From Selaginella tamariscina (lineage: Eukaryota > Streptophyta > Lycopodiopsida > Selaginellales > Selaginellaceae), in assembly GCA_003024785.1 (NCBI GenBank), contig PUQB01000495.1, positions 107,497 to 171,496 on the forward strand: a stretch of DNA of 64,000 bases, in the 5' to 3' direction. Positions 1 to 63,923 of the stretch are shown piece by piece (within the stretch, counting starts at the first letter, position 1; the number at the start of each line of letters is the position of its first letter). The notes under the pieces are model-generated. The model was not told the DNA's origin. It saw only the letters and a list, made by a program, of their open reading frames with translations, and searched no databases. Both the position numbers and the translations under genes were made by a program.

Positions 1-1197
1 AATGTATATCTTTAGTTTATTTTTTTTCTTCATTTTAAATTTGAAGTTAAACATATATTTATAATATATTTATTATGTATCTATGATATATTCATTATAT
101 ATGTTTAAACTCAAATCATCAACTTTGTTTATATATGTTACATATGTTATATATATATATATATAATTTAGTGAGATATTATTTCAAACATAATTGAATT
201 TGAAGGATAATATATTATATTATTATAATATTGTTACAAGTTATATAACAATTTTACTTTCAATATTATAATAATGTTTATACTATATAATAATTTTAAT
301 AATAAAATTAATTATTAATGCCCATTTGTGTAGACACAAAATAATAGAATACAAAAATTTAGAAAACATATCTTTTTAAATACTTTATACACATAACATA
401 AAATATAAGAATTCTTAAAAAATAAAATTATACATATATTTACAATTTTTTTATAAATACTTTATGCTTTCAATTGTACATAAACACATATATATACACA
501 TGTATATATATAGTGAGTGTGTGTATGCGTAGACAGACACACACACGCAATCTTATATGTACATGTTTGCATATGTACACATAAATGTATAAACTACTAT
601 TAAAAAGAAATAAAATGAAAACAATAAAGATATGTACGTATATACGTATGTATACAACACAAACAAACATTTAGGTATGCATACAAATGTTTTCTCAATA
701 GAATATCTAGTTAATAATGCTCGGCCACGTCACATTTCGTAGTATATTCTGTATGTACTTTAAGATAATAACCGTCGATTTCATCTACATCAAACCGTCA
801 ATGTCAATTAATCACAGTTAATTAAGTTATTTATTTTAATAATTTTATATACATTTAGATAATATAAATGAAAAAGACCTTCGGGATTAATACATATTTC
901 ATTTACATACACGATTTAATATATATAAATTTTCTTTATAAATATATGTTTTTTCCTGGTTTATACATATCTCATTTATATACATTAATTTGATATATAT
1001 AAATTTTCTTTAAATATATATAATATTTATCAATTAAATAAATTTTAATTAATTACCACTAGTCCTCATAATTAGAATAACCTTGATAAGTAAACAGATT
1101 AATTATTTAATAAATTGCGCAGGGGTTATCTTAATTAGGGCTCTTCGCCATTTTAGGGTTAGGGTCTTAGAGAGCAGGAGCGAGCGAGAGAGGCAGG
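1..1197. other. AT-rich upstream region of YJU2
   Basis: No coding sequence is supported here. The stretch is very AT-rich with short TA and CA/TG microsatellites. A degenerate tandem duplication of about 65-70 bp lies at roughly 888-949 and 960-1024; both copies contain an 'acatat..catt' block and a 'tatataaattttctt' block. The last 60 bp before the YJU2 start become richer in GC and hold a telo-box-like motif. The region probably contains the YJU2 promoter and 5' UTR. Confidence 0.6.
1151..1164 (+). promoter_or_regulatory. Telo-box-like motif upstream of YJU2
   Basis: TTTTAGGGTTAGGG lies about 35-50 bp before the YJU2 ATG. Telo-boxes (AAACCCTA or its complement) are known plant promoter elements common near the transcription start of housekeeping genes. 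Similar motifs precede the UCHL5 and WDR70 starts in this window. The regulatory role is inferred. Confidence 0.5.
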
Positions 1198-2733
1198 ATG
1201 GGAGAGCGCAAGGTGCTGAACAAATACTATCCGCCGGATTTCGATCCGGCGCTGATTCCACGGCGGAAGGAGCCCAAGAATCAGCAGATGAAGGTGCGTA
1301 TGATGCTCCCAATGAGCATCAGATGCAACACTTGTGGGAATTACATATACAAAGGTACCAAATTCAACTCACGCAAGGAGGATGTTGTGGGGAAGACGTA
1401 TTTGGGCATTCAGATATTCAGATTCTATTTCAAGTGCACCAAGTGCTCGGCTGAGTTGTCTATGGTTACGGATCCACAAAACAGTGATTATGTTATGGAG
1501 TCTGGGGCTACTCGTAATTTCGAACCTTGGCGTGCCCAAGACGAGGTATGTTCATATGATACACATTTGCCATAATTTAGTATCATTATATATTGCATTT
1601 ATATATACATTTATGTGTGTGTATACGTATGTCTCGTATTAAATACAATATCTTATGTAAAATCTACGTTCTGGGTGTATATATGTACGTGTATTCTAGC
1701 CTAATTATGAATTCATTTTATGCTTTCTGTGTTATCAAATAATTTTGTTAAGCTTAATTATAATAATCTATTAGAATCGTTAATGTTTATTTACATTATT
1801 TGTTTGCTTAATTACTAAGCTAATTAATATGTTAGGCCCTCGAGAACGCAAAGAAACAGCGAGAAAGTGAAGAGATGGGGGATGCAATGAAAGCACTTGA
1901 AAACAGAACAATGGATTCGAAACAGGTTCGATATATATTATATATTACACATATCGCGAAAGCTGTAATATATTAAAAGCTGTGTTTACTAATATATATA
2001 AACTTAACAGGAAATGGATATATTAGCAGCACTAGACGAGATGAAATCTATGCGTGCAAGGCATGCTCAAGTCGACATAACGGAGATGCTCAAGGTCTTA
2101 CAACGGACGGCCGAGAGTAACAGGGAAAAAGAATTGGACGAGGCAGATGAAGCCATTCTACGGTCGGTAGTTTTCAGAAATTCCGAGTTCTATGTGAAAC
2201 GCTTAAAGGACGAAGACGATGATTCAGAGGAGGTAAGCAAACATTAAATATATATGTACGGAGAGAGGGGGTAGACATCCTTTAACACATTACCACATTA
2301 GCACAGGTATACGATATAGGCATTTGTAATGTTAATGTCATATATAGCTAATGTTTAACTTCAATACATAACCCTCCATCTCCCTCCCTCCCTCCCTCCA
2401 TCACTGTTTGCATACACACCCGCACACACGCACACACGCACACACAGATGGATACTGAATGTTTTTCTATTAATATTTATTATTTCTAATTATTTTTGAA
2501 ATTTTTAGGATGAGTCTCCTGCAAAAATAACTAAAGTAGAAGAAAAGGAGCCATTAATTAACGGAAAGAATAAACCAGCACCAACAAAGAAAACTGTATT
2601 AGCTCCGAGGTTTGTTGTTAAACCCAAGACAGTGAAAACGGGTATTGCACAGTTGAAGGATATTCCTGAGAATATCCCGCAATCAAGTGGGCTTGCATCC
2701 CTTGCGGGCTATGGTTCTGACGATGATGAGTAA
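1198..2733 (+). CDS. YJU2: YJU2/CCDC94 splicing factor (CWC16 family)
   Basis: The product is a homologue of yeast Yju2 / human CCDC94, which joins the Prp19-associated spliceosome and promotes the first catalytic step of splicing in the nucleus. Four exons join cleanly: 1198-1545, 1836-1925, 2011-2232 and 2509-2733, all with GT-AG borders, giving 294 residues. The N-terminus [17 protein letters not shown] is the family hallmark. Two CxxC pairs (CNTC near residue 43 and CTKC near residue 80) form the zinc-binding part, followed by a charged coiled-coil (EEM...KALENR...[11 protein letters not shown]). The acidic C-terminus ends in DDDE. The start is fixed by the conserved N-terminus. No frame breaks were seen. 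The neighbour downstream is a Ty3 LTR about 590 bp past the stop. Confidence 0.95.
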
Positions 2734-3322
2734 CTGTAAGTTTATGAAATATGTAAAACAAATATTATTTTAATGTGTATATATTTCTGAATTTTAAGTA
2801 TATAAGATATAAAGTATTAAATACTATCATATCATGGTTTTATCTCAGTTAAATAGTTCAAATTATAATAATGTTATATAAATTAAAATATATCATTATA
2901 AGAATATTAAAAAATAATTACTTAATAAAGACAGAAAATATAAATATAATGCGTATATCTATAATGAGAAACATATTTATATAAACATATGCATATGTGT
3001 ATAAAAGAATATAAACATTATATGGCATTGCAAGTAATAAAAACTCCACATTATGGTTTTTATAAATACACAAATGTAATTAATGATTATCAATTACACT
3101 AAACTAAAATATTAATCTTGAAGAAATATAATATATAATGCATATATCTATTAATGAGAAACATTTATATAAATATATGCATGTGTATAAAAGAATATAA
3201 ACATGATTATTTAATAATATATAATATTGTAATAAAATAAGAAAAGACTATATTTGGTTTTTATAAATACCAAAGTAATTAATGATTATCAATCTTACAA
3301 GCTAATTATAAATATTAAAAAT
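2734..3322. repeat. AT-rich intergenic stretch with degenerate tandem duplication
   Basis: No gene is visible between YJU2 and the Ty3 LTR. Two diverged copies of a unit of roughly 170-190 bp lie at about 2947-3118 and 3136-3300. Both contain 'atctat.aatgagaaacat', 'gtataaaagaatataaacat' and 'gtaattaatgattatcaat' blocks in the same order, with indels between them. The YJU2 3' UTR and polyadenylation site should be in the first part. Confidence 0.65.
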
Positions 3323-3550
3323 TGTAAGATTCATGTGTACGGTTGCATGTGCATAAACTATTGTTAGCATAGTGAATTTTGATAGTTGTCGGATTGAATT
3401 TAATCTGGACCATTCATTCTTGTATATAAGTTTAACATAGTGGATTTTGATAGTCGTTGGATTGGATTTAATCTGGACCATTCACTTTTGTATATAAGTT
3501 AAGGTTTTTGAATTAATGGATATACACATTTTTATATATGAGCTCTTACA
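3323..3550 (+). repeat. 5' LTR of the decayed Ty3 element, with an internal promoter duplication
   Basis: The LTR begins TGTAAGATTCATG and ends GAGCTCTTACA. It is 68 bp longer than the 3' LTR because a unit is present twice in tandem (about 3371-3438 and 3439-3505). Each copy ends in the TATA-box-like TGTATATAAG, so this LTR carries two potential core promoters (about 3421-3430 and 3488-3497). Confidence 0.85.
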
Positions 3551-3701
3551 TTGGTGGAGGTGAGGGCATCTCTAATTATCCCTATGGAGTGTTTGAATTT
3601 GTGTTTGTTTTTTAATTAATTTTCTTTGTCTTCTTAGGTTTAACTTTTTTATTATCTAGATCTATTCCTTTCTTATAGATTCTGTCTTTTTTTCGTCCAT
3701 G

Positions 3702-5030
3702 AATTCACAACAGGCAAATCCCTTGTTTGTGGAATAGTTACTCATGGAGTTGTTGGATGCCATGCGTGTGCAACTGAACAATCATTCTCAGTTGATGGCA
3801 GCATTCAGTCCAGGGTACTCCTCCTACTCATGTTGCAAACCCCGTGTCCGGCCGGATTTCTTTCGGAAATCCTGGAGATGATGTGTACCATTGGTTTGAC
3901 CACTTCATTGTGGTTGCCACATATCATTCGTGGGACGGTGCTCAGTGTTTGCGCGAGTTTCCTACTTGTCTTCAAGGGACGGCGTTGCAGTGGTACAATG
4001 GTCTGGACGTTGCAACTCGTGGAGATTGGAATATTCTTCCAGAGATCTTCAAACGTGCATTTGGGCATGCGGACATGACAGCAGTTGCATCGTATTCGTC
4101 AGGAGCCATCTGAGTCGGTGATGCAGTTTGGTGTTCGCTTTCGAAGCCTTTTGCTGCGTGCAGAACCTAACATGTCGGAACGCATCAAGTTAGGTATGTT
4201 GTGGCCAGCACTTCGTCAAGACCTTGTGGGGCTTGTGCATGCACTAGCTCCAGTGACTCTTGACGATGCTTTGAGGCTGGCACAACGATATGAGTCGTCA
4301 CCTCTCCCACTTGCGCCTTCACGTCTCGTTCCACTCATGTTGGGGATGGACCTGCTCCGATGGAGGTTGAGGCTGTTGCCGCTCGTGTACCAGCACAAGG
4401 TGGGGCCCGTGGACGAGGACGTGGACGTGCAGTTCGTTGTTGGGCATGTGATGAGGTTGGACACACGTATCGGCGCTGTCAACGGTTTCCCGATTGGCGT
4501 CCCCCATTTCCAGGATGGAGGCCATGGCGTCAACAACGTCTGCAGTGGAAGGTTGTGATGCGGTGGATCTTCCGGGAAACGACGAATCGCACGAGTAGAG
4601 GAGGGTCCTCGTGCGAATAAATTAGTGACCCCTCCATCTTTCTTTCGGGAGTATCATCAAGGGGTTCACTCGGCACCAAATCATCCGGTTTTCACTTTTC
4701 AAGCTCGTTTAATCACACGCCACGTCCTGTTTTCCTTTCAGTGTTGGTGGATACAGGTTCAAGTTTGTCCTCTGTTTCTCAATCTGTTGCTACACGTTGC
4801 AGCCTTCATTTGCGTCGTGGGTAGAACCAGTCTTCATTCTGTACGGCAACGGACATACTCATGCTTGTTCGCGGGATGAAGTGGACATTGTTGTTCGTGT
4901 GGATGATTGTGAGCTCGAGCTTCAATCTTTGCGGGTGGTGCCGAGTCAAGCTTTTCACCTTATTCTTGGTATGGATTGGTTAACTCGCAATCATGCCAAG
5001 TGTGACTTTGAAAAGTCTCCCCCTTGTTTG
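3702..5030 (+). pseudogene. gag and protease remnants of the decayed Ty3 element
   Basis: The open pieces shift frame several times. The 3844-4080 piece has a retrotransposon gag core (residues such as YHWFDHF and LQWYNGL). A CCHC zinc knuckle, CWACDEVGHTYRRC, lies at about 4438-4480. The protease active site LVDTGSS is at about 4744-4764 and its C-terminal hallmark FHLILGMDWL at about 4948-4980. In-frame stops occur soon after the probable gag start near 3702 and between gag and protease, so no complete polyprotein can be read. Confidence 0.8.
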
Positions 5031-5179
5031 ACTCTCCCTCGTTTTCTTCCATTCCTCTTACTTCTATTCCACTTCGTCCATCTGCTTCCACCTCTGCTTC
5101 CATCACTTTTGTCTCACCCTTATTTCCAACCATTTTCCCTTCATGCTCTTCCTTTTCTTTGGATCCATCAGATGATCGT

Positions 5180-6060
5180 CGTGCTGTAGTTGTTGATCAA
5201 CTCAAGAAGGAGTATGCTGATCTTTTCAACTTCGACTTGTCATCTGGGGCCAAGATTGCGACACGCCACCCTATTCCAACTGGAGAGCTAGGCCAATCAA
5301 GGTACCTGTTCGGCGTGGTCACCAAAGGAGCTCAAGATCTTACGAGCGAATGTCAAAGAGATGTTGGAGAAGGGTGTTATCCGGAATCTCGAAGTCCTTG
5401 GGCGTGCGAACCTCACCTTGTGACGAAGCCTGATGGGAGCGTTCGATTCTGCATTGACTATCGCCCATTAAATGAGGTAACCGTCTCAGATGTGTACCCA
5501 CTTCCTCATACTGCAGACCTTTTGGATCGACTGGGGCGGAGCCGTTGGTTCACCAAGTTAGATCTCGCATCTGGATATTGGCAAGTTCCGATGGCTGACA
5601 TGGACATTCCCAAGACTGCTTTTCGGACACCATTTGGCCTGTACGAGTTCTGGTGATGCCTTTCGGTTTGAGCAATGCTCCAGCAACTTTCCAGCGTATG
5701 ATGGACGAGGTTCTTTGCGACATGCCGGAGGTGACTGCCGATTTCATCGATGATGTTTTGATCCATTCGGATGGAACGTGGGAGGAGCATGTGGTGATGT
5801 ACGTAAGGTTTTGGATCGGCTGCGGGAAGTTGGTTTGAAGTTGAAGCCATCTAAGTGTATGTTTGGATCAAAGGACACCACTTATCTGGGTTATCGCATT
5901 TCACGTGAAGGTTTGCAAGTCGATCCTGACAAACTAGTTGCAGTTTTGAAGTTCCTACGCCAAAGTGTGTGAATGATGTGCAACGCTTTCTTGGCAAGGT
6001 ACAATATCTGGGTCGTTTTGTGGATCATTTTTCAGATCGTACTGCATCGTTGCGCGCATT
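5180..6060 (+). pseudogene. Reverse transcriptase remnant of the decayed Ty3 element (5' part of split pol)
   Basis: RT motifs are easily read: LVTKPDGSVRFCIDYRPLN, a KLDLASGYWQV block, and PFGLSNAPATFQ. The catalytic box reads FIDD at about 5743-5754 instead of YIDD, at the expected place. One frame shift falls at about 5650 and another near 5825. The reading stops at 6060, where the GTTGA target duplication of the nested element begins; RNase H resumes at about 13259. The insertion therefore lies just after the RT thumb/connection region. Confidence 0.85.
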
Positions 6061-6065
6061 GTTGA
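6061..6065 (+). other. Target-site duplication, left copy (GTTGA)
   Basis: GTTGA at 6061-6065 is repeated exactly at 13254-13258 directly after the right LTR. A 5-bp duplication is typical of Ty3-class integrases. Removing the element plus one copy rejoins the split pol of the host element. Confidence 0.92.
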
Positions 6066-7758
6066 TGTCATAGTTTTTACTATGACTCAACCCTTTACTT
6101 TGGACGTTGATTGTTGTTACCTACTGTACTATGTTGATAAGCCCTAGGTGTAGAAGAAACAGGCCTGCTTAGTGCACTTGGATATTTAGTGATGGTTCGG
6201 CCGGGTGTCATTAGGTATTTGCAAGAAACTCTGGGCGAAGCTAGCACTTCCATCTAGAAAACTCTTACCTTGGTTTTCCATGTCCCGGTTGGGTTAATGG
6301 CTAGTTCTGGTGAGTTCAGCATGTTGGATATGCTTAGAAATACCCCCAGGTTTGACAGGTTAGGGTTTAGGGGTCGATGGATAACTCACCAAGTATGTTC
6401 CCTCTGGGAATGAGATTTCAGTGCTAGCCCACTTATGTAAACAGGAAAACAAGGGGGGGGGCCTCTGTCACATAAATAAGGTAGTATATAGGAGTGAGGG
6501 TTCCTGGGTTCATGACTGAGCTCGTTACTCTTCTCCCGGTGCAAGCTCCTAGCTTGTGTCGTTAAGGCACAACCCTCTGTTGTGCCGCCCTAACTTCCAG
6601 ATGCTAGGGGTACGTCCCACCTTCGGGGTAGCTTACCCTTAACGTTGGCGAATCCATGCCTGGGAGGTCTTGTCGGAATGCACGTTCCAAGAGGCAGAGG
6701 TTGAGGCTTGTCTCCAGCCTCCTCCTCCACGTCAAGCTAAGTGTAGCACTCACGGCCAAGCAAGGCACATCCGTGTCCTTGCCCAATTGTGAGTGTGGGA
6801 TCTTGTTTGACAGGTTCATGTTACTTGGTTCCTGAGGGTTCGTTGAGGGGTTCTAGAGTCAACACTTAGGAGCCACGTTTGTGGCACTTGGTGCAACTCT
6901 TGAATCTAAAGGCTATGGCATGATAGCCCACATCGGGGAAGGCAGTGTCACATGGAGATGTGACACTGGGCTAAACATCACATGGTACAACGCCTGAGGC
7001 ACGCCCTTTGGGGTTATGTCATGGGCTTATTGCCAAAGGGTTGGATACTTTAGCAAACAGACATGCTTGTGCTTGCACTAGGGTGCTAAGCCTTGGGCAT
7101 CCGCTCAAGGGAGGTTAGGTCTCATAACTAGGTGTGCTTTGGCACACTTGGCTAGGGGAGTGTTCTCCTTGGAATTCAAGGGTTGAACAACCTAAACATG
7201 TTAGCAGGAGCCCTTTCGTGAGGCACTCGCAAGGTCATGTGCTTAGGGTTATCCCAAACCTAGCCTTAGGGAGTTTGCTTAGCAGAACACTCGTGTCCGC
7301 CTATGGCGCACACTAAGTACTTGTTGCCCTAAAGGGGTTGTACTCTCGGATGAGGGTGATTTCTCAAGGGGTAAGAGACGATGCCTTAGCTCTGTCACGG
7401 GGGTATGTGTGGAACACACGTCTCCTTGATGGGGGTTAGGGCATGAGCCTGTCTAGGTCTTCTAGGGCAAGACCCTAAGTCAACTAGGGTTATCCCTCAA
7501 GGGTTTTGGGGGCAGACACTCTAGGGAGACTTAAGCTAAACCCTAAGTCAACTAGGGTTATCCCTCAAGGGTTCTGGGGGCAGACATTCTAGGGAGACTT
7601 AGGCTAAACCCTAAGTCTCCTGTCCACTTGGGCATTAAAGTCTAACCCTAGGGGTCGTTGGGGTTGTTCTGGGAAACTTAGCGTTGCTCACACAGGGTGA
7701 TGACGCCAAATGGCCACTTGGCAGCCACGTGTTGGCCCTTTGGATTAAAACTCTAACA
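6066..7758 (+). repeat. 5' LTR of the non-autonomous element
   Basis: This LTR is 1,693 bp, TGTCATAG to CTCTAACA. Features seen: an 8-bp terminal hairpin (GTCATAGT at 6067-6074 pairing with ACTATGAC at 6079-6086); a G run near 6451-6460 followed by a promoter-like CACATAAATAAGGTAGTATATAG stretch at about 6471-6491 and a GC-rich probable leader; an 11-bp perfect hairpin (CAGTGTCACAT 6943-6953 with ATGTGACACTG 6958-6968); further hairpins at 6542-6556, 6566-6586, 6911-6928, 7132-7147 and 7161-7189; and two 68-bp tandem units. Compared with the 3' LTR it lacks about 60-70 bp near 7313. Confidence 0.9.
7472..7620 (+). repeat. 68-bp tandem repeat in the LTR with telomere-like words
   Basis: Units at 7472-7539 and 7540-7607 are followed by a partial third. 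Each starts ACCCTAAGTCAACTAGGG, carries CCCTCAAGGG and a GGGGG run, and ends before the next ACCCTAA. The 3' LTR has the same two units plus a start (from 12968, 13036 and 13104). The reverse-oriented relative at about 56633-56840 has three. Copy number is therefore variable between family members. Confidence 0.85.
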
Positions 7759-7760
7759 AT

Positions 7761-7775
7761 TGGTACCGGAGCCTA
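7761..7775 (+). other. Primer-binding site of the non-autonomous element
   Basis: TGGTACCGGAGCC starts two bases after the 5' LTR end. It differs at two positions from TGGTATCAGAGCC, the usual plant sequence complementary to the initiator-Met tRNA 3' end. The autonomous relative has TGGTATCGGAGC at the same place. Confidence 0.8.
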
Positions 7776-9243
7776 TTCTCTGCGGTCAGTAGGACTACCT
7801 AAAGTGTAGTGTATTTTAGGGTTTAGTTAGTTCTAAATTCTTGAAGTACTCTATCACTTTCGGCTAATGTCTGAATTCTGCGTGGAGAGTTGGTCTTGAG
7901 ATCTATAACTCTTCAGAGTACACCTACTTCATAAGTGGGTGTGGGTTATGGACTTAGAAGGTAGCACTTGGAAGTCAGCTTCCAAGTTGTATGCCAGGTT
8001 ATTTTACCTTATAGTTGTCCGGGTTACTTTACCATTTACTTCCACAAGACAAGGCATGTTAGTTTGTTCTAGCTTACAAACTAAGTCTTGTGAGATGGGC
8101 CTTGTGATATCCTATTCTACACATTATTGAAAATTTTTCTTTTTTCTTTAAGGTGTTTGAATTTGGGATAACACATGATTTGAGAACGTGGCTATGTCCA
8201 TTGAGTTTTGGCTTAGGTCAAGATTCAATATCGTTTCCAGCAATAGTGTTCAAACGGGGAAAGACTTATGTTCAGAAGTGCATCTTTGACTTCGGGAGAA
8301 GGGGCATATTCAAACATAAGAATGAACACTACATTTTGATATAAAGTGTAAAATAAGCTCTTATTATAGTGCATGTTTCCGAGAGTGTAACTCTAGAAGC
8401 AGACTATGGTGATGAACTTATAATACAACGGAAAGTCAAATATTAACATATGATAAATATGTTAAGCAATGGGTTTGAAGATCCAATGTAGTTAAAGTAT
8501 TGTATGATGTTCGCAATATTTTAATGATGCTAGCTGCAAGTAACATTAGGTGGAATAGTTTACTAAATTCAAGTCCCTTGATTTGAACAAAGTATAACAT
8601 GAAACCTTAGTTAGTTGTAAGCGCGCACTCTGTATTCAAGTTAGCTAGCTCGACTAACTTGATTATGAAGTTGTCTCATATGGGATCATGAGAGAGACTT
8701 GGAATAACAGCTTGAGGATTTCGGTTTCTTATCGATATAGTTTTGGGATAGATGGCATAATCTATCACAAAGAGTAATGTTGGAAACATACGTTTACATT
8801 TCAGTTTACTGAGTATTAAGGACATGCATAGTGAAGGCGTTTGGCGCACACTTGTACATTTTCATTGTTAACTCTTTAATCTTGAAATCTGTAACGTTGT
8901 TTGCAATGTAGGGATAAGCTCTTGAACAAGGGTGATTCCTTGGTTAAGAAGAGCATGATTTGGGATTCTCCATTTGTTATTGACTAAGTAAGGAAACTTG
9001 CTAAGTTTAATAAGTTATGTTGGTTGTCAATGAGTCAAGTTAGTCGGATCATTGGAGGTTTAAGTGCATGTACCTCCTCAGAGAGTCGGTGTTCGATGAG
9101 AATTGAAGTTGATATTGATTTTCAATATCAATTTCATTTTAGAGTCGAATACGATTATTCAAAAGACGGTTTCTTGACTCTGCATCATGGTCGCAAATGT
9201 GGGCACTTAAAGAACAAATAAAGTATGTATCTTCAATCTTTCG

Positions 9244-9354
9244 GAATATTGAAAAATAGAACTATTCTTGACTCAAGGTTTGATTGTATTCCTTGGGTTA
9301 GTTGTTAGTTCTATCTCAAGGTTTGATGGTGTTCCTTGAGTTGGTTCAATATTC
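9244..9354 (+). other. Three-way-junction-like module in the hairpin array
   Basis: An outer 10-bp stem (GAATATTGAA 9244-9253 with TTCAATATTC 9345-9354) encloses two arms. Arm one is ATAGAACTA (9256-9264) with TAGTTCTAT (9306-9314), which itself encloses ACTCAAGG (9271-9278) with CCTTGGGT (9291-9298, one G-T pair). Arm two is CTCAAGG (9315-9321) with CCTTGAG (9334-9340). The two inner hairpins have similar loops (tttgattgtatt and tttgatggtgtt), so they look like a duplicated hairpin whose stems have stayed paired. Confidence 0.7.
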
Positions 9355-9697
9355 TTGTAAGTATGATATTGTGTAGCGGATTAGCTCAAGAAGATGGTGT
9401 CCCTTCTTGATGATTGTAGTTCAAGGTTCGTCCAATATCCGGTTCGAGAATATGAGGTTTCCTATCACCTCATCTGTTGAGATATTTATATTTAAACTTT
9501 GGCAGAATTTTGACAATCTTTTCAAGATTGGTTATAAATGACTTGTCAAAGTATGGTATGATATCTCTTCAATATTGAGTTTGGAGCGCTCAATATCAAA
9601 CTTGGTTATGATCACATGAGGTGGCCGTAATCATATAATATAAAGACTCAAGTGGATTTGAGTCTGACACTTTGGTAAGGCACTACCTTAGTGTTAT

Positions 9698-9767
9698 AAC
9701 TTGAAACGTGTTTTCAAGTTAGTTGAGAAATGAGACATTTCTCAATACATTGCTTGAGGGGCAATGT
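9698..9767 (+). other. Three back-to-back perfect hairpins
   Basis: AACTTGAAA/TTTCAAGTT (9698-9706 and 9712-9720, loop cgtgt), TTGAGAAATG/CATTTCTCAA (9723-9732 and 9736-9745, loop aga) and ACATTGC/GCAATGT (9747-9753 and 9761-9767, loop of 7) follow one another with spacers of only 1-2 nt. All stems are perfect. Confidence 0.8.
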
Positions 9768-10080
9768 GATACTTTCTGGATTGCTAGGTGTCTAGAGTGA
9801 ATAATGTATCTTAGTTCAATGTACTGAACTAGATATTTTATTCATGTTTGGGGAGATCTATTGAATTATAAGGTATGACTAAACATGAAGTTGATATAAC
9901 ACTTCAGTGTATGATAACATTTATGTGGAATATCTTACTAAATCAGTTAGATGAACCAGACACTAGTTCATGATTCCTCTTAGTCTCTGAACAAAGTTCC
10001 TCGAAATACTGTCATAACATTATATTTCCGTCTCAAAATTGAAGTTCGGTTCATGTAAACTAAGACCATATCTATATTAT

Positions 10081-10213
10081 AGTTGTAGCATTTCGATAAA
10101 TTGATATGATTGTAAGTTTATATCGCTAGTATAACAACTAGTTGATAAACTTAGGATTTGAACGTTAAAACGATCATTATCCATTCAAGAGTATCAATAT
10201 CGAAATTACAACT
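10081..10213 (+). other. Long bulged stem with an internal hairpin in the array
   Basis: A 22-bp helix with two 2-nt bulges can be drawn: AGTTGTA (10081-10087), gc bulge, ATTTCGAT (10090-10097), aa bulge, ATTGATA (10100-10106), paired with TATCAAT (10192-10198), ATCGAAAT (10199-10206) and TACAACT (10207-10213). Inside it lies TAAGTTTAT (10113-10121) with ATAAACTTA (10145-10153), itself capped by CTAGT/ACTAG (10126-10130/10137-10141). The hierarchy is that of a folded RNA domain. Confidence 0.7.
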
Positions 10214-10254
10214 GTTTATGAATAAGGATTAGTTTAAAAAGATGTTTATCAAAA

Positions 10255-10297
10255 CACTAATTGCTTGAATTAGTGAAAATGCTATACTTCGGTATAG
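10255..10297 (+). other. Hairpin pair, one capped by a C(UUCG)G tetraloop
   Basis: CACTAATT (10255-10262) pairs with AATTAGTG (10268-10275). It is followed by CTATAC (10282-10287), loop TTCG, GTATAG (10292-10297). As RNA the second has the exceptionally stable C(UUCG)G tetraloop well known from rRNAs, which is a hint that the RNA form matters. Reading from DNA alone cannot prove this. Confidence 0.65.
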
Positions 10298-10377
10298 TGT
10301 TGAGAAACATTTACAAATCAATTTAAGTTGGAAATAAATATAATGTTATGGAGGCGTGCAGTATTGAGTTCAGAGAG

Positions 10378-10433
10378 ACTCTTATCGTGAAACTAAGTTT
10401 AAAATTTGTATTTTAACTTAGTGAGATAAGAGT
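10378..10433 (+). other. 22-bp near-perfect hairpin
   Basis: ACTCTTATC (10378-10386) pairs with GATAAGAGT (10425-10433). Inside, ACTAAGTT (10392-10399), one bulged t, then AAAAT (10401-10405) pair with ATTTT (10410-10414) and AACTTAGT (10415-10422), closed by the loop ttgt. This is the longest local hairpin in the array. Confidence 0.8.
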
Positions 10434-11130
10434 TAGGAAGTATTGAATGGCATCTAGTATGATGTGCTCTTTGGGAATGAGTACAATGAGACAATTAAGA
10501 GACGTGTTATCTAAAGATTGTCGATTGAGGCACTAGAGATGGGTTGAATTTCCTGGTTTCCACATTAGTTTGTAAGAAAGGTATGTTAGCTTATCTGGTC
10601 CCTGAACTGGTCGGTGTTATGAAAGAGTACAAAGATGGTTGCGAAAGACAATGGTAAGGCTATCACACTTGGTCGCATTTGACTGAATTTGATTCCTATC
10701 GGGAATAAATTTATGTTAATAACACACCAAGTGAATGGCATTGGTAGATTGGCAAGACCTTGTTGTTACATGTGTACAGCCATGCGCCTCTGTGATCGCC
10801 TCTGGCCAGATTGACATGTTTACAAAGAACAGGGTTTTACGACTTGTACTCTTATATCGGAAAAGAGCTTGATTCCGATAAAAGTCTCATACTTAGTCTG
10901 GCGTAGCTATATACTAATGAGAGATAGGTATAGTAGCAGACCCTTATGAAAAGGGGTAATGAGAAGCACCGAGGGATGCAGAGATGTAAGCTATAATATC
11001 GTAACATGTGGAGATGTGGGACCATTGGAAAATCAAAAGAAATGCGAAGGTGTTTGGTCAAGCATTTGAGAAGTGCTTGTTGTGGTTAGACGACAGAGGT
11101 CGTCAACAGCATTTAATATTAAGGAATAAA

Positions 11131-11503
11131 GCAAGTCTTTATTTCTTGTTAACCAAGGGGCCGGCAACAACACTAACTAGAGGCCTCCAATATAAATTCT
11201 AGTTAAGTAAAGAAATTAACCATTGTGTTGTGTGCGTCGGGTGACAGACTTTGCAGACGTGCAAAAGGTCTCCAAGTGACTTCATGTCGCAGGTGGTGCC
11301 TCCGGCAGCTGGTTTAGACTCAGTGAACGACGGTTCTGAAGTACTTGGTTTCGCGTAATGCAAGGGGGGTAATAAAACTTATGTGAACTTTTGGCTGACT
11401 CCGCATAGAGTGATATGTTAGTTTTGGTTAGTTTTCTCTAACATTATCTAGTCTTGGAGTTGGACGTCAACGAGGACGTTGACATTTTCAAAGGCGGGGA
11501 GTG
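11131..11503 (+). other. 3' region shared with the autonomous element, and polypurine tract
   Basis: From about 11131 (aaggaataaagcaagtc) to the LTR, the sequence matches the region after the pol stop of the autonomous element in reverse orientation (58518-58890). The polypurine tract AAAGGCGGGGAGTG (about 11490-11503) immediately precedes the 3' LTR. Hairpins are here too, for example GTCAACG/CGTTGAC (11466-11472/11477-11483) and TTTGCA/TGCAAA (11250-11255/11260-11265). Homology starts almost exactly at the helper's pol stop codon. Confidence 0.85.
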
Positions 11504-13253
11504 TGTCATAGTTTTTACTATGACTCCCTTTACTTTGGACGTTGACTGTTGTTACCTACTGTACTATGTTGATAAGCCCTAGGTGTAGAAGAAACAGGCC
11601 CGCTTAGTGCACTTGGATATTAGTGATGGTCCGGCCGGTGTCATTAGGTATTTGCAAGAAACTCTGGGCGAAGCTAGCACTTCCATCTAGAAAACTCTTA
11701 CCTTGGTTTTCCTGTCCCGGTTGGATTAATGGCTAGTTCCGGTGAGTTCGGCATGTCGGATATGCTTAGAAATACCCCAGGTTTGACAGGTTAGGGTTTA
11801 GGGGTCGATGGATAACTCACCAAGTATGTTCCCTCTGGGAATGAGATTTCAGTGCTAGCCCACTTATGTAAACAGGAAAACAGGGGGGGGGGCCTCTGTC
11901 ACATAAATAAGGTAGTATATAGGAGTGAGGGTTCCTGGGTTCATGACTGAGCTCGTTACTCTTCTCCCGGTGCAAGCTCTAGCTTGTGTCGTCAAGGCAC
12001 AACCCTCTGTTGTGCCGCCCTAACTTCCAGATGCCAGGGGTACGTCCCACCTTCGGGGTAGCTTACCCTTAACGTTGGCGAATCCATGCCTGGGAGGTCT
12101 TGTCGGAATGCACGTTCCAAGAGGCAGAGGTTGAGGCTTGTCTCCAGCCTCCTCCTCCACGTCAAGCTAGGTGTAGCACTCACGGCCAAGCAAGGCACAT
12201 CCGTGTCCTTGTCCAACTGTGGGCGTGGGATCTTGTTTGACAGGTTCATGTACTTGGTTCCTGAGGGTTCATTGAGGGGTTCTAGAGTTGGCATTTAGGA
12301 GCCACGTTTGTGGCACTTGGTGCAACTCTTGAATCTAAGGGCTATGGCATGATAGCCCACATCGGGGAAGGCAGTGTCACATGGAGATGTGACACTGGGC
12401 TAAACGTCACATGGTACAACGCCTGAGGCACGCCCTTTGGGGTTATGTCATGGGCTTGTCGCCAAGGGGTTGGATACTTTAGCAAACAGACATGCTTGTG
12501 CTTGCACTAGGGTGCTAAGCCTTGGGCATCCGCTCAAGGGAGGTTAGGTCTCATAACTAGGTGTGCTTTGGCACACTTGGCTAGGGGAGTGTTCTCCTTG
12601 GAATTCAAGGGTTGAACAACCTAAACATGTTAGCAGAGCCCTTTCGTGAGGCACTCGCAAGGTCATGTGCTTAGGGTTATCCCAAACCTAGCCTTAGGGA
12701 GTTTGCTTAGCAGAACACTCGTGTCCGCCTACGGCGCACACTCGTGTACTAACCCTAGGTCTAGGGTATAACTTGGCCACTCAAACCCTTAGGGGTTAGT
12801 CGTGGTTCAGGGTACCCCTTGTCGCCCTAAAGGGGTTGTACTCCCGGATGAGGGTGATTCCTCAAGGGGTAAGTGACGATGCCTTAGCTCTGTCAGGGGT
12901 ATGTGTGGAACACACGTCTCCTTGATGGGGGTTAGGGCATGAGCCTGTCTAGGTCTTCTAGGGCAAGACCCTAAGTCAACTAGGGTTATCCCTCAAGGGT
13001 TTTGGGGGCAGACACTCTAGGGAGACTTAGGCTAAACCCTAAGTCAACTAGGGTTATCCCTCAAGGGTTCTGGGGGCAGACATTCTAGGGAGACTTAGGC
13101 TAAACCCTAAGTCTCCTGTCCACTTGGGCATTAGAGTCTAACCCTAGGGGTCGTTGGGGTTGTTCTGGGAAACTTAGCGTTGCTCACACAGGGTGATGAC
13201 GCCAAATGGCCACTTGGCAGCCACGTGTTGGCCCTTTGGGTTAAACTCTGACA
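11504..13253 (+). repeat. 3' LTR of the non-autonomous element
   Basis: This LTR is 1,750 bp, TGTCATAG to CTCTGACA, and collinear with 6066-7758. It keeps a segment (about 12740-12817, tgtactaaccctagg... to ...gggtacccc) that the 5' LTR has lost. It has the same terminal hairpin, G run, hairpin pairs and 68-bp tandem units. Confidence 0.92.
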
Positions 13254-13258
13254 GTTGA
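13254..13258 (+). other. Target-site duplication, right copy (GTTGA)
   Basis: This is an exact copy of 6061-6065, directly after the CTCTGACA end of the 3' LTR. Confidence 0.92.
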
Positions 13259-15220
13259 AATCGTTAATGATTTCTTTTGTTTGGTCTAAGGATTGCAAGT
13301 AGGCATTTGCAGATCTCAAAGAGTTGTTGACGACTCCTCCAGTTTTGGCGTACCCGGATTACATCCGTCCTTTCATCTTGCGTGTAGATGCTTCTGACAT
13401 TGGCCTCGGGGGCGTATTGATGCAGGAGAGTACGAGCGTTCCTGGCCAACGACATCCCATTGTGTACATTAGCCGTAGATTGCAGCCAACAGAGGTGAAT
13501 TACTCCACGACATAATAGGAGTGTCTAGCAGCAGTTTGGGGTTTTGAGAAGCTCCATGCCGCGGACGTTGTTGGAAGGCGATCATGCAGCAGTCACTTCA
13601 TTGTTGAAGCAAAAGAATTTGATTGGGCGTACTGCTTGGTGGGCCTTGAAACTTCAAATTTACGACTTTGAAGTTGTTCATCGCCCATGAAGTTCTATGG
13701 CTGATGCTGATGCTCTTTCTTGGGCTCCTCTTCCACCGTCTCTCTCTTTTGTTGCCCCATAGGAACCAGTTGTTCCAGCTTCAGTGAACTTTTTGGACGA
13801 AGATTCCGTACCATCAGTAGTTGCTGTGTTTGACATTCAGTGTCCATAGAATGCAGAGTTAGATTTGCCGTCTTTGGATGAGGTTCGGGAAGCTCAAAAT
13901 GTTGATCCGTGGATTCGAAGGCTTCGTGATGGGTTTGAGAATCCTGCATCACTTGCTGATGACTTGCCTTTCAGGCATTTACATTCGTAGTATCGCCTTC
14001 ATGATGACCTTCTTTATTTTGTGGGGACTGATCCAGATGATCCTTTACGGTTGGTGGTGCCTTCAATCTTCATTCCACGCTTCCTCCATGCTTACCATGA
14101 CTCTCCTATTCTTGGCGGGCACATGGGACATCGTCGGGTGATGGAGAAGCTGCGCAGATCTTTCTATTGGCCGGAGTTGCGAGGAGATGTGATTCGGTAT
14201 GTGCGTAGTTGTGTGTGGTGCCAAGCTCGCAATACTCCCCCATGTGCTTCGGAAGGACGGTTGGAGTCAATTGCAGTTTCTCGTCCGTTTGAATTGGTGG
14301 CATTTGATTTAATGGGACCTTTTTCACGGTCAACTGCTAGCAACGAGTACGTTAGTATTGCTTCTGATTACCTAACTCATTGGGTAAAAGTTGGTGTTCT
14401 TGCTAGTGCGACTGCTTCTGCTGTTGGTCAGTTTCTCCTGAATCGGGTCGTGTTTCAGCATTCTTGTCTGGAGCGAATTCTCTCGGATAATGGTCATGCA
14501 TTTATGGTTGAGGCATTTCATGTTTTGACATCTCGATTAGGGATACGCCACACTTTCACAAGTACTTATCATCCTTAGACAGATGGTTTAATGGAACGGC
14601 TCGACAGAACCTTCAAAGGGATGATCGCGAAGTATGTGAACTTTCAACATTTGGATTGGGATGGTTATGTGCCGTTTCTTCGATATGCTTATGTCATTGA
14701 GTTCAAAGTTCCATTGGTACTTCCCCATATAAGCTCTTGTATAGTCATGACCCGTGTTGCCAACGGAGTTGGGTTTGCCTTCTCGGTTACCACGAGCTGC
14801 TGATGCTAGGTCGTGGGATCGGTATCTAACAAGCATTCTTCCATTAGTTCGTGCGGAGTAAGCAGAACACTTGGGCTGCGTACAAGTAGGACAACAACAA
14901 CGCTACAACTCGCATCATCGTCCTCCTACGGAGTACAAGGTTGATGAACTGGTGTTGGTTTGTTTTCCTAAGCTTACGGTACGTGGTTTAGTTAAGAGTC
15001 TCCTTCCTTAGTGAAAAGGAATGTATCGAGTGCTACGGCAAGTAGGGCCACAGGTTTATGAGGTTCGACACGACATTCAACCCGATCCTCCGGAGATTGT
15101 ACATGTACAATGGTTGAAGCATTTTGTGCAACAGGAACAAGTTGTGCCGCCTACAGATCCACCAGTGCCTCCTCATGATGTTTCTCCAGATTCGGGCCCG
15201 TCTACAAGAGAACCCTAACC
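13259..15220 (+). pseudogene. RNase H and integrase remnant of the decayed Ty3 element (3' part of split pol)
   Basis: This continues pol after the nested insertion. RNase H begins with ILRVDASDIGLGGVL (about 13375-13420). The integrase zinc region (HMGHRRV ... SCVWCQ, about 14120-14225) and catalytic core (FDLMGP, LSDNGH, then MERL after a stop) give the D, D, E triad. The C-terminal GPY/F-like tail (RVLRQVGPQVYEV) runs to about 15218. Stops within RNase H (about 13513) and before the catalytic Glu (about 14577), plus frame changes, make it inactive. Confidence 0.85.
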
Positions 15221-18259: not shown

Positions 18260-19025
18260 TGTTTAATTTAATTTATGTTTTAATTAATTAATTTCATTAA
18301 TTTGTTTTAACTAATTTACAATTTATATATGGAGGGAGTATTAACATAAACTATATTTTTAAATTTTGTAAATATCAATATTTATATACAATCCACTCTG
18401 GTTTAAATAATTATCTTACATTTACATCCGTAATGAGTATATTAATAGTTAATTAAGTTAATATATTATTAATTTTAATTAATTTGTTTAAAAAATCATT
18501 TTATTATTTCTTTTTATATTTCAAAAAATCCATCAATACGTATATACTTATTTTATTAAGTTTTTTTTTAATTAATTTCATTAGAATACATTTTAAAGTG
18601 TTAACTAATTAATATATTTATTGAATACATAAAATTATATTATTTATGCGGTAACTATATAACTTTTATAAATAATTGAATTGAATTGAATATTAAATAT
18701 ATAATTAAATAATTTGGTTAACTTTCAATATTTTAGCTTTATTAAATTAATTTTTCTTAGAATAAATAGCATTCTTTATTTTAAGTATAACTACTAGGCA
18801 AATAATGTATGAATAATGTATATATATAATAATAATAAATTAGATTGTAAATTAAAAGAATACATATACATATATTTTAACGTGCAAAGGAATTCCATTT
18901 TTAAATACTCCTAAGAATAATCATAGTTATGCATACATATATAATTTATTTATTTATATAATTTTATTTCGTATAAGTAATATTTTAATATTTGGTAATT
19001 TAGTAATTTATACCAATATATATGT

Positions 19026-19070
<45 letters not shown>

Positions 19071-19205
19071 TTATGTTTATAACATAAAGCGCTTGTTTAA
19101 TAATAAGCTTTTTCCCTTTATTAATATATATTACTGGATTAATGTATTTAATAATTAAATATTCTATAACAGAGTTTAGGGTTTTTTCTAGGGTTTTCTC
19201 TCGAG
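18260..19205. other. AT-rich intergenic region between UCHL5 and WDR70
   Basis: No gene is visible. It holds the UCHL5 3' UTR, a (TA)n run at about 19030-19067, and the WDR70 promoter. Two telo-box-like motifs (GTTTAGGGTTTTTT at about 19174-19187 and CTAGGGTTTTC at about 19189-19199) sit just before the WDR70 ATG. Confidence 0.6.
19174..19199 (+). promoter_or_regulatory. Telo-box-like pair upstream of WDR70
   Basis: Two AAACCCTA-complement motifs in the 32 bp before the ATG at 19206 match the arrangement seen before UCHL5 and YJU2. The role is inferred. Confidence 0.5.
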
Positions 19206-21702
19206 ATGTCTTCCGATGAGGACGACGCGCAGGAGATGGTAAGTCCCTCTCTCGCACACACCATGCACGCACACACAACCTCTAATTTCTTCAACTGCAG
19301 GCTCAAATGCGTGCAATGGCCAAAGCACAGAATCGATCCAATGGTATGTCTGTAAACAATCCAGCGGCAATGGTAAGTCCAAAATTCTTGTAATGGACAA
19401 TAGATAATATACTTGATATAATAAGCTATTTGTGAACTAATGTATATGTATATACACGTACAATTGAATTATATATCAAATATTCGGTAACCTATATTGC
19501 AAACACACGAAAGTTCTATACGTTGGTAACCATATGATCTTTATATATGGTATTACCCATATAGTTCATTGTGTGTATGTGTGGCGCGTGTGGAGTTATA
19601 ATCTAATACGTTCGTAGCATATAATCTTTATTTTTATTTTAATGTATATATATATATATATATATATATGAGTGAGAATACGTTCGTGGATATATATATG
19701 TACGTATACCTCTCTCTAAATAAATCTCATATAAAGTGAATAGGAGAAGTCCACAAAAACTGACCCAACTTGTGTTATAGGAAGAGTTTTACGAAGAAGA
19801 CCAGTTAAGAGCATTCTTCCCAACGTCCTTCGGTAGACAACATGAGGAACAAGCACCGGAAGAAGTTCACTCACGGACAAGACGTGAAGAGAGTCTGGAG
19901 AGATCATCTAAGGAATCAAGACAGCGAATATCCGAGGATCTGGAGTGAAAATATCCGCAGGATCCAGTCAACAAGAAAGTTCCCGAGGTTGGTCCACCTA
20001 GGCCTCCTACGAACGAAGGTGAAGATCCTGAGCCGACAAACGAAAATGGAGAGCTGGTTGGTCCCTAGGTCTCCCGATGACGAAGATGAAGTGTTGGTTG
20101 GTCCACTAGGCCTCCCCAAGTGACAGGCAAGCGTTATACTTCAGTGCAATATACATTTAAACTCATATTGCTAGTTATGCTTACTAAGTACATAGACAGT
20201 ACTTACGAATCAACTAATAACTACTATTTTGTGTTCAGAGACTTATTGGACCTCAACTACAAGAGAGTAGTGATGAAGAAGAGGACGAAGATGAGTATTT
20301 CGTTCCTTTGAGTAATGAAGTTACATTGGGAGGACATACCAAGGTAAAGTAATGCTTATATAGGTCATGGTATATATTACTGTCCCTATAATATGTATTC
20401 TAATGTGATTAATTACTATACATGTGTGTTCAAGAGTTACAAGCTTGTGTTAAATTATGTTTATTCAAACATAGTAACACCTGTATGTTTGAAGGTTGTA
20501 TCTGCACTGGCTATTGATCCATCTGGATCCAGAGTATTGACAGGAAGCTACGATTATACGATCCGTATGTACGATTTCCAAGGAATGGATGCCGTCTAAA
20601 CTCATTCAGGCAAGTTGAACCCTTTGAAGGCCATCAAGTTCGAGCAATAAGCTGGAGCCCGTCCGCAGACCGATTCCTTGCAGTAACTGGTTCGGCAAAA
20701 GCAAAGGTAACTTATATATATTCATAAACATGCATATTTATATATAGAGATGCACTATAAGCAGTTCTTATGCAAGCATACGTGTGTGCATGGATAATAT
20801 ATAATGCATATACACATACGCATAATAACTAGATGAAGATACATACATATATGGAGCGTGTAGACATTAAAGTATTTTATATATATGTATGTACTGTATA
20901 TATTTGAATGTAGAGAGTATTTTTTAATATGCTTACACCATTATACCTCCTTTTTACAGATATATGACAGAGACGGACTTACACTGGGGAGTTTGTGAAA
21001 GGGACATGTATATACGGGATCTCAAACACACTAGTGGGCACATATCCGGTTTGACGGCTGGTCATTGGCATCCAAACGAGAAGAATACAATCTTAACCTC
21101 TTCAGAAGACGGCTCAATACGTATATGGGACGTCACAGACTTCAAAGCTCAGAAACAGGTACAAGATATATACAATAGACGACAACATCACCATATATAC
21201 ATTATTATGTAATTTATTTTAACTTTCTGTTTTCCATATATTAGGTAATAAAGCCTAAGCTTGCAGGCCAGGTCGAGTTGCTGTGACTACTTGTGCATGG
21301 GGATTAGAAGGGAAGTCCGTTGTAGGCGGCTTAGCAGATGGTTCTATTCAGGTGACGTGTCTTTGTATATGTATTATATAAAGTTACCCTCTTATATCTC
21401 TGTATTGTCAATGTTCAAGAAATTACACTGAAGGGAAGGATGTTTAACACGGTTAAACGATTGCAGATTTGGAATATTAAATCGGGTTGGGGAACACGGC
21501 CGGATAAATACATAGAGAAAGCTCATGCACCAGGTGAGGAAGTGACTGGAATATGCTTTTCACCGGATGGAAACACAATGGTTTCAAGAAGCACGGACTC
21601 TACTATGAAAGTAAGTATATATAAAATCTAATGTATAGCTGTAACACACACACACACACACACACAAAGGGGTGGGGGAGCAAATACACATATATAGTGT
21701 TT

Positions 21703-21750
<48 letters not shown>

Positions 21751-23171
21751 GGTTTGGGACATACGTAACCTAAAGAGTACTCTCAAAGTGTTCACAGGAC
21801 TACCATGTTTCTACTCACGGACAAATGTATGTTTCAGTCCTGACCAGAAGCTTATTTTGACGGGTACTTCAGTTGAAAAGGGCGGAAAGGCTGAAAAGGG
21901 CGGTCAACTCATCTTCTTTGACAAGACACGACTCGAGCTCGTTAGGAGAACTGCAATATCCTCCTCAGGCAGTGTTGTGTGCTGTTACTGGCATCCCGAC
22001 TTAACCAGGTATCTAGTGTATACCTATTTTTACATGTATACATACATAATAGTATACAATATATATAAGTGTATAAGTATATGTATATGTGTCTCAACGC
22101 GCGGGGGACACCTGTGTAACTAATTATATACTTTGCAGATATTTGCAACAACGGGGGATAAGAAAGAAGGGAAGACACACGTATTCTACGATCCGATATT
22201 AAGTAAAAGAGGAGCATTGGTGTGTGTTGGTAGAGCTCCACGTAAGAAATCCGTGGACGATTTTGAAGCAGCACCTGTTATCAGGTATAACACATACAGC
22301 CTACATATACACATACACATGCACATACATACATACATATGTCTATATATATATGTGTGTGTAAATAATTAGTTTAAATCGTAATCCGTGTTATTATTAG
22401 GAATCCACACGCATTGCCGATGTTTAGAGATGAACCGAGTCGTAAACGACAAAGAGAGAAGGCTCGTAACGATCCTATCAAGTCTAAGAGGCCTGATTTA
22501 CCAATTAATGGACCTGGTCATGGTGGTCGTGTTGGTACTACCAAAGGCAGCTTGCTCACCCAATACTTGCTCAAGGTACATTATCTATCTATGCGTGTGT
22601 GTGTGTGTGTGTGCAGAATGATATGTTATAATGAGTCTGCATATATGATATGCACATGTCACAAATACTTCTTTATGTTAATATAAGTTTTATCGTAGAA
22701 ATACTGGTTTAGTAGCCCTCATAGCTACGTACACACGCGTTCACCCGCATTCACACACATGGATGCACTATGCATTAATACCTAATGTTTTATCATAAGC
22801 AGTAGTCGTGTGTAATGTATACACGTACATGTGTGTTTGTGTCTGCATGTATTCATGTATATAGGAAATTACTGTTTAGTTGCCTTCCAATATCATTATA
22901 GTATATACCACATTTCATACTATATTGCTATGCACCTATAACACACACACACATACATATACACATTATGATATATATACTAAATATAAATAATATTCTT
23001 TCAGGAGGGAGGAGCTATGACAGAGAATTGGGCAGAGGAGGACCCGAGAGAGGCCATACTTAAATACGCAGAGATTGCAAAGAAGGATCCCAAGTTTATG
23101 CTCCTGCTTATGCTCAAACACAACCTGAGATCATCTTTGACACTACTGCCTCCGACGATGAAGAAAACTGA
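19206..23171 (+). CDS. WDR70: WDR70-like WD40 repeat protein
   Basis: WDR70 is a conserved nuclear WD40 protein linked to CRL4 and DNA-damage/chromatin functions in other eukaryotes; the plant role is poorly known. Exons: 19206-19238, 19301-19372, 19781-about 20126, 20239-20343, 20495-20706, 20960-21158, 21245-21351, 21467-21610, 21752-22008, 22139-22284, 22401-22575 and 23005-23171. An acidic N-terminus precedes WD blocks such as GHTKVVSALAIDPSGSRVLTGSYD, TSSEDGSIRIWDV and GICFSPDGNTMVSRSTDST. The C-terminal tail contains RKRQREKARNDP and GSLLTQYLLKEGG. Single-base losses break the frame near 20590, 20985, 21003, 21265 and 23105, with further slips in exon 3 (about 19945, 20065 and 20107). 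Each is repaired on paper by one or two bases, usually in a short homopolymer. Exon 3 seems to end at a GC donor (GACAG/GCAAGC). Confidence 0.88.
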
Positions 23172-55451: not shown

Positions 55452-56476
55452 GTTGTATCATCGTATAATAGTTTTTATTATTATTTTCTTTTATTTGGGA
55501 CATTAACTGTTGTTGCCTATCAAATAAGTTTTAAGTATTGAAAAGACATGCATATTAGTGCACTTGGGTATTTAATAATGATTCAATCGGATGTCATTAA
55601 ATATTTGTAATAAATTCTAAGTAAAACTAATATTTTTATTTAGAAAACTTTCCCCTTGGTTTAATGTCTCAATTGGGTTTGGTGGTTTAAAAACACATTT
55701 AAGGTTAACCTTATATGGGTTATTAGGTTAAACTCACTACATTTTATATTAATCCACTTTAAAAAAATAGAAAAAACAAAGGGGCTTAACTTATATTGCT
55801 AAAACACCCTTAACTTTAAAAACGGTAAGATAAATGTGCCCAAGTATGCCGCATCCAAAATTAGGTAACTCTTTTCGGTAACCCGATCACACATTTGAGA
55901 GGTCTTGTCAGAATATGTGTATGGTAAGATAACCTACATCATAGAAAATAGTGTCATATGAACATGTGACATTAAGTTATTTAGCACATAGTACAACACT
56001 TGAGGCATGTCATTTGAGGTTGTGTTATGGATTTAAAGTCGAGAGGTTAAATACTTTAGCAAGAAGGTGTGTTTGTGCTCGTATCGACATGTTAAATATT
56101 AAGTATTTACTTAAGAGAGGTTAAGTCTTATAATTAGGTGTGTTAGCAAGTATAATTGGCTATGATGTTTTTCATATGAGTGTGTGAACATGTTCAAGAG
56201 TTAAACAATTTAAGCTCATTAGCATCATGAGGCAATCACATAGTTGCATACTTACGGTTTTTTAAAAATTTACTTAGCATAGTACTCTTAATCGCAAGTT
56301 AAGGTACTTGTTGCCTTGGGAAAGTTACAATACTTTAATTCTATTACGTGTGCAAGGTATTTCTCCTTGGTAGGGTTGGGACATGAGGTTGTCTAGGTCT
56401 CATGAGGTAGAACTGTAAAGTTTTCTTGAATTATTCTTTAGGGTTTGAAAAATTATCGTTGTAAAGGATTTATAAT
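55452..56476 (+). repeat. Ancient, transition-decayed LTR of the non-autonomous family
   Basis: Collinear with the 6066-7758 LTR in the same orientation but strongly AT-shifted: for example 'gttgttgcctatcaaataag' against 'gttgttacctactgtactatgttgataag', 'tagtgcacttgggtatttaataatg' and 'gagaggttaagtcttataattaggtgtg'. Most differences look like C-to-T and G-to-A. This is the decay expected from long-term cytosine methylation. The right end is cut by the reverse-oriented LTR piece at 56477. The left boundary is approximate. Confidence 0.75.
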
Positions 56477-58517: not shown

Positions 58518-58532
58518 CACTCCCCGCCTTTG
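58518..58532 (-). other. Polypurine tract of the chromodomain element
   Basis: On the minus strand AAAGGCGGGGAGTG directly precedes the 3' LTR, identical to the tract at 11490-11503 of the non-autonomous element. Confidence 0.85.
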
Positions 58533-58887
58533 AAAATGTCAACGTCCTCGTTGACGTCTAACTCCAAGACTAGATAATGTTAGAAAAAATTAACCAAAAC
58601 TAACATCACTCTATGTGGAGTCAGCCAAAAGTTCACAAAGTTTTATTACCCCCCTTGCATTACGCGAAGCCAAGTACTTCAGAACCGTCGTTCACTGAGT
58701 GTAAACCCAGCTGCCGGAGGCACCACCTGCGACATGAAGTCACTTGGAGACCTTTTGCACGTCTGCAAAGTCTGTCACCCGACGCACACAACACTGGTTA
58801 ATTTCTTTATTTAACTAGAATTTATATAGGAGGCCTCTAGTTAGTGTTGTTGCCGGCCCCTTGGTTAATAAGAAATAAAGACTTGCT

Positions 58888-61803: not shown

Positions 61804-61949
61804 AATAGGTTAGCGAACAGATTCTTGACCATCTCCTATTTTGACTTCACCAGTATCCAAAACCATTGCAAGAAACACACGTTCCCGATGTCTAACTGCC
61901 TTACGCAACTGAGTTAAGGTAAGGAACATAGGATTCCAATCCTTATCAG

Positions 61950-63907: not shown

Positions 63908-63921
63908 TTGCTCCGATACCA
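63908..63921 (-). other. Primer-binding site of the chromodomain element
   Basis: On the minus strand TGGTATCGGAGC follows the 5' LTR after two bases. It differs at one position from the usual initiator-Met complement TGGTATCAGAGC. Confidence 0.85.
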
Positions 63922-63923
63922 AT

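Follow-up and report, generated by a model that had tools for sequence, protein, structure and literature searches.

The window, by which we mean the whole stretch of 64,000 nucleotides of Selaginella tamariscina DNA analysed here, harbours an LTR retrotransposon at 6066-13253. A perfect 5-bp target duplication, GTTGA, can be read from the sequence on both flanks (6061-6065 and 13254-13258; the element and all its parts are given on the plus strand). The hairpin-rich 5' LTR (6066-7758), which runs from TG to CA, and the 3' LTR (11504-13253) were delimited by sequence and LTR alignment. They differ by 34 transitions and 4 transversions in 1680 positions, i.e., by a K2P distance of 0.023. The interior between them measures 3745 nt (7759-11503). 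It begins with a primer binding site, TTGGTACCGGAGCC at 7760-7773, which we take to resemble the 3' end of initiator-Met tRNA, and closes with a purine-rich tract just before 11504; both align with a coding relative described below. Among 20 genomic copies of the element, 16 were listed and 13 had both LTR ends delimited; the 5-bp flanks were identical in eight of the 13 and different in five. In the window, the element sits between pieces of a reverse transcriptase (RT; 5012-5656) and an integrase (13991-14578), which look like an older gypsy element. Further coding sequence, from a Vps62 exon and part of a protein kinase, is plant-like in look. A tandem duplication of about 110 bp with 97% identity is found at 49411-49631.

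The interior is non-coding by ORF scan and tblastn: 7759-11503 holds no stop-to-stop ORF of at least 150 aa and gave no tblastn match at E ≤ 1 to the four ORFs of the coding relative. A decayed gag-pol was rejected on the latter ground. The element had been predicted to be non-autonomous, and this is borne out; it lacks gag-pol, and a helper-like relative lies within the same window. Known RNA families did not reach their gathering scores anywhere in the window, the five matches in the interior (E 1.1 to 3.2) all falling far below them.

The coding relative occupies the minus strand from 57548 up to the end of the window. Its 3' LTR (57548-58517, 970 bp) contains five stems of at least 8 bp. 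Its interior (58518-63923) shows zinc knuckle/protease, RT, RNase H and integrase pieces by ORFs and domain matches. These lie in several separate frames, so that this particular copy looks broken. The family, however, appears to have been active recently: when 40 of 1555 candidates from a search with the 324 nt 3' of its primer site were scored, all 40 places, the window itself included, were 98-100% identical, which means at least 39 other places. The two elements are related at their ends. Their LTRs are 82% identical over the first 197 nt and 79-81% over 375-605. The last 380 nt before the LTR of the coding relative align as almost the same sequence as 11120-11503, the 384-nt 3' interior segment that ends in the purine-rich tract by the 3' LTR, and BLAST over 11120-11698, which includes the LTR start, gives 91.5%. 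The segment after the primer site (7747-7923) is 77.8% identical by BLAST. That the termini of the interior are common to the coding relative is suggestive of mobilisation in trans, as far as can be read from the sequence. The same terminal hairpin, an 8-bp stem with a 4-nt T loop, forms the start of all three LTRs that begin within the window, in both elements (6067-6086, 11505-11524 and, on the minus strand, 58497-58516). Moreover, the 3' part of an LTR of the large-retrotransposon-derivative (LARD) type, at 56474-57547, abuts the 3' LTR of the coding relative at 57548, as if the relative had inserted into a LARD LTR.

The peculiarity of the interior is its hairpins. The original prediction, made by eye, was that 7921-10890 holds at least 13 perfect stems in 3 kb where about one is expected by chance, and that these exceed the range of dinucleotide-shuffled controls, a check set beforehand. 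With a minimum of 8 bp and loops of 3-20 nt, the count of perfect stems is indeed exactly 13; 100 dinucleotide shuffles of the same stretch averaged 1.18 and never had more than 4. Nor do the listed stems share sequence, as had also been noticed, and a tandem or shared-sequence repeat is thereby rejected as their source. Six other stretches of the window, counted unmasked, yielded 59 (19000-22000), 19, 16, 13 (in a 2-kb stretch), 4 and 3 stems; that four of the six reach or exceed the array is due to microsatellites. With simple repeats masked, the array has 4.38 stems per kb and the whole interior 3.74, compared with 2.36 and 2.86 in the LTRs, 2.24 in 1-6065, 1.11 in the interior of the coding relative and 0.87 in 14600-55400. 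The stretch 56474-58517 reaches 3.99 per kb, but it mixes two LTRs, which, taken apart and unmasked, have 5 stems in 970 nt (coding relative) and 3 in 1074 nt (LARD-type). In masked 3-kb windows moved by 500 nt, the richest was 7501-10500 with 13 stems. The AT-rich start of the window comes near the level of the array (in 501-3500, 11 stems among the 2559 bases left unmasked); there, chance stems should be commoner.

Folding of 150-nt tiles, which had been proposed as a check, agrees with the counts. The interior (24 tiles) has a mean z of -2.01 on the plus and -1.86 on the minus strand, as compared with -0.41 and -0.14 for 16500-55000 (89 tiles). One point of the original account needs correcting: the interior is densest, but the LTRs at 2.4 and 2.9 per kb are hairpin-rich too, so that within the element the interior does not stand alone. 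The LTRs of both elements are rich in hairpins, and the coding interior of the relative is not. Masked densities and folding scores together thus describe the array as a trait common to the non-coding parts of this family of elements and most pronounced in the interior of the LARD.

The interior is conserved among many copies. A first search of the 300.7-Mb assembly gave at least 51 matches (40 of 4369 candidates were scored), and the window and 34 copies were aligned. To these were added L043, found via a divergent LTR, and then six copies from a search with L043, four of which later received their 5' halves. The final alignment has 42 rows: the window and 41 copies, 35 closer and six old. 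The closer ones are mostly about 91-96% identical to the window by BLAST. The old ones (L036, L043, L044, L046, L047 and L049) are 79-88% identical to it over 9573-11503, and the 5' part of L044 is 77% identical. Left out were the first part of L050, which is inverted, those parts of L052 and L053 that lie upstream beyond the interior, and L043 to the left of window position 9573; the interrupted or rearranged copies L034, L035, L036, L039 and L040 and the partial copies L041 and L042 were kept with gaps. L001-L008 are the same as the window and the places of L009-L015 and were not counted. The old relative L043 (1153-5376 of its locus, G000:C1040) has an LTR that is followed by an inverted LTR; two more places, on C1379 and C1191, are 99% identical to it and are perhaps a segmental duplication.

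Variation was counted in 28 stems of at least 7 bp with loops up to 40 nt, 458 sites in all. Expectations took base and methylation context into account, and the 35 closer copies were used with the window copy left out. Stem sites carried 20 shared variants where 57.1 were expected (0.35) and 51 singletons where 84.1 were expected (0.61). In the loops the numbers were 33 vs 40.1 (0.82) and 61 vs 59.7 (1.02), respectively. Circular shifts of the stem set gave counts as low as observed in 0 of 530 cases for shared variants and in 1 of 530 for singletons. A stricter choice of stems (8 bp, loops of 20 nt at most) behaved alike, with 11 vs 28.2 shared variants and 31 vs 42.5 singletons in stems, and so did a looser one (6 bp, loop up to 30) with 39 vs 84.7 and 76 vs 124.0; in the looser set the loops, too, were depleted (48 vs 71.1 and 97 vs 105.3).

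In the five pairs of old copies other than L043-L044, stem differences of the 7-bp set amount to 0.63-0.83 of expectation, and the looser 6-bp stems of older pairs are only slightly conserved (0.79-0.94). The two oldest, L043 and L044, show no stem conservation when compared with each other (47 vs 46.0 expected, 1.02). Among fully aligned stems, at most one pair is broken in 17 of 21 in L046, 22 of 25 in L049, 19 of 22 in L047, 15 of 21 in L044, 12 of 14 in L043 and 25 of 28 in L036; fully paired are 14, 16, 10, 13, 6 and 20 of them, in the same order. The stems at 9697-9721, 9747-9767 and 9812-9831, for example, have kept all pairs or all but one in each of the six, some of the loops having changed.

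Alternatively, the hairpins could have been inherited with whatever sequence replaced gag-pol and be unselected now, their conservation being only apparent because stems were picked in the window copy and hold few CG/CHG sites, which mutate fast. CG/CHG sites are in fact rare in the perfect stems (14 of 458 vs 270 of 2981 elsewhere), and the pair L043-L044 is what such a history would leave behind. The depletion in stems, however, survives standardisation for context and exclusion of the window copy, and it affects shared variants more than single ones. We consider this explanation unlikely. The hairpins, then, are genuine and old, and the constraint on them is weak to moderate.

If pairing as such is kept, compensatory changes should be in excess. 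A compensated pair was defined by two doubly different paired states, each in at least two rows, and the null was obtained by re-pairing sites of like base-pair type inside 300-nt blocks. Compensated pairs numbered 18 vs 11.1 (1.0% of 200 re-pairings); before the 5' halves were added they had numbered 16 vs 9.3 (1.0% of 300), and for all predicted pairs 26 vs 16.1 (0 of 300). When three rows were required, there were 7 vs 3.46 (3.5%) or, for all predicted pairs before the 5' halves, 10 vs 6.28 (7.3%). Pairs with any compensatory cell were not in excess overall (42 vs 40.2; 37% of re-pairings) nor in the six older copies (33 vs 34.6; 70%); in the closer copies they were (10 vs 5.5; 3.3%). Broken cells lay below the null overall (850 vs 956; 0 of 1000); among the older copies the shortfall was not clear (283 vs 293; 9%). 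Re-pairing without blocks gave a larger excess (42 vs 19.1), on which we do not rely because variation differs by region. Controls with slid partners likewise overstated the excess, since slid pairs are seldom complementary; in one of them the double changes themselves were hardly raised (11 vs 9.1). The view that pairing is what is kept therefore stands on the conservation of stem sites, compensatory change lending it weak support. The weakness of the covariation also suits inherited, unselected hairpins.

As to strand, pairs specific to the sense fold show no covariation (6 vs 6.2), those common to both strands do (12 vs 7.2; 1.5%), and pairs of the antisense fold under their own rule yield 15 vs 9.6 (3.0%). 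The covariation is thus modest support for kept pairing, short of proof, and does not single out the sense strand. Across 61 tiles, neither sense and antisense folds (p = 0.40) nor folds with G.U allowed and forbidden (p = 0.56) differ significantly in strength. Such equality, together with covariation confined to pairs that both strands can form, is what one would expect if the hairpins mattered as single-stranded DNA or as double-stranded RNA of two strands, be it in cDNA folding or as a source of small RNAs, and not as a fold of the sense RNA. Yet in one-sided transitions at complementary pairs, shared variants favour G.U over A.C (44:19 vs a 55% baseline, p = 0.012), while singletons stay at baseline (76:52 vs 59%, p = 0.51). 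An excess in shared but not in singleton changes is the pattern expected from RNA-level selection in an active lineage. The ratio in older copies is 307:209 (p = 0.052, the cells not being independent), and in strand-neutral stems the bias is not significant (9:3, p = 0.15; 15:8, p = 0.24). An earlier transition-only comparison of shared with single variants on the folded structure (38:4 vs 37:16 in helices of at least six pairs) was replaced by these strand-neutral and baseline-corrected versions because its structure had been predicted from one copy with G.U allowed. Also, the perfect stems are short (7-10 bp), unlike the long hairpins that small-RNA precursors would be expected to have. We therefore regard a role as DNA or two-stranded RNA as distinctly unlikely. 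The bias toward G.U leans weakly to RNA as the level of selection; RNA as opposed to single-stranded DNA as the selected form is only hinted at.

Another proposal made for this array was mutational: switching of templates in the course of reverse transcription would have perfected imperfect inverted repeats. Mutations of this kind have been reported for yeast quasi-palindromes (PMC3820800). In the copies there is little sign of them. Only 3 of 131 stem-by-copy cells had at least three changes in one arm while the other arm had none; arms with at least three changes made up 5.3% of 262, as against 16.5% of 2337 control windows; and in copies 77-88% identical to the window, the majority of stems lack one pair at the most. 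The rarity of one-arm blocks argues against an origin of the stems by template switching after the divergence of the copies, earlier events being possible, and as a general explanation we deem it very improbable.

LARDs have been known for two decades, and the element fits this known, little-understood passenger class; it is not a new kind of thing. Kalendar et al. (2004) are said to have described Sukkula of the Triticeae as a LARD, reportedly with an interior of about 3.5 kb and LTRs of about 4.4 kb. To our knowledge, conserved non-coding interiors of LARDs have no tested reason on record. We do not treat an interior size of 4 kb as defining, because that of Sukkula also falls short of it. 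The likeness to Sukkula is one of description, and the LTRs differ in length (1.7 kb here vs about 4.4 kb). Genome-scale ordered RNA structure (GORS), known from some positive-strand RNA viruses, likewise consists of many dispersed local stems over kilobases, but it extends across coding viral genomes, whereas the sequence here is a non-coding passenger.

GORS has been linked with persistence. The 4-kb cut-off stems from a review (PMC9033089), and our interior of 3745 bp lies under it. LARDs such as Sukkula likewise have LTRs around a large conserved non-coding interior and are assumed to be mobilised in trans; as a difference, variation was here counted at the level of stems, and a related coding element lies nearby. 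The original prediction knew of no described hairpin-array interior like this one. That was overstated: conserved RNA secondary structure is already named as a LARD feature in PMC7215508, which cites Kalendar et al. 2004. A literature search, with subscription papers mostly outside its coverage, found no hairpin-array interior described in titles and the beginnings of abstracts. The genomic RNA of yeast Ty3, also an LTR retrotransposon RNA, has a well-folded core with cis elements; Ty3, however, is autonomous and coding, and its structure was probed experimentally (PMC11381356). A parallel is seen in grass pararetroviruses, where partner and passenger share non-coding regulatory sequence (PMC5491270). 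What is added here is copy-level evidence of constrained stem sites and a coding relative in the same window.

The element is, by a slight balance of probability, a LARD-type passenger of a Ty3/gypsy-like element whose hairpins are retained for an RNA function, in the particle of the helper or against translation or silencing. The full-length transcript would be packaged and copied by Gag-Pol of the coding relative. Having no protein to encode, the interior would evolve freely as structured RNA; its local hairpins may be kept because they aid the genomic RNA in the particle by compaction, Gag binding or dimerisation. Alternatively, they might shield the transcript from translation and silencing. 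Packaging or compaction in helper particles appears to be the likeliest candidate role. A bolder version, which we regard as possible and rather doubtful, sees a selfish element with RNA shape as its sole heritable product: unrelated hairpins over kilobases, kept through about 20% divergence, would make a protein-less transcript good cargo. Since a single genome contains copies by the dozen, a graded series of older relatives and a coding relative whose 3' cis sequence is nearly the same, it becomes directly testable whether the fold is selected, and for what.

Finally, variation among the 35 closer copies is uneven. Within 9259-9858, pi is as low as 0.003-0.008 in four of six 100-nt bins, among them the three from 9559 on; 9559-9858 is hairpin-dense and the least variable block (pi 0.003-0.006). 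Among the six older copies, neither stretch is low in variation. A recent sweep, gene conversion or a young constraint may account for the low values in 9259-9858 of the closer copies.
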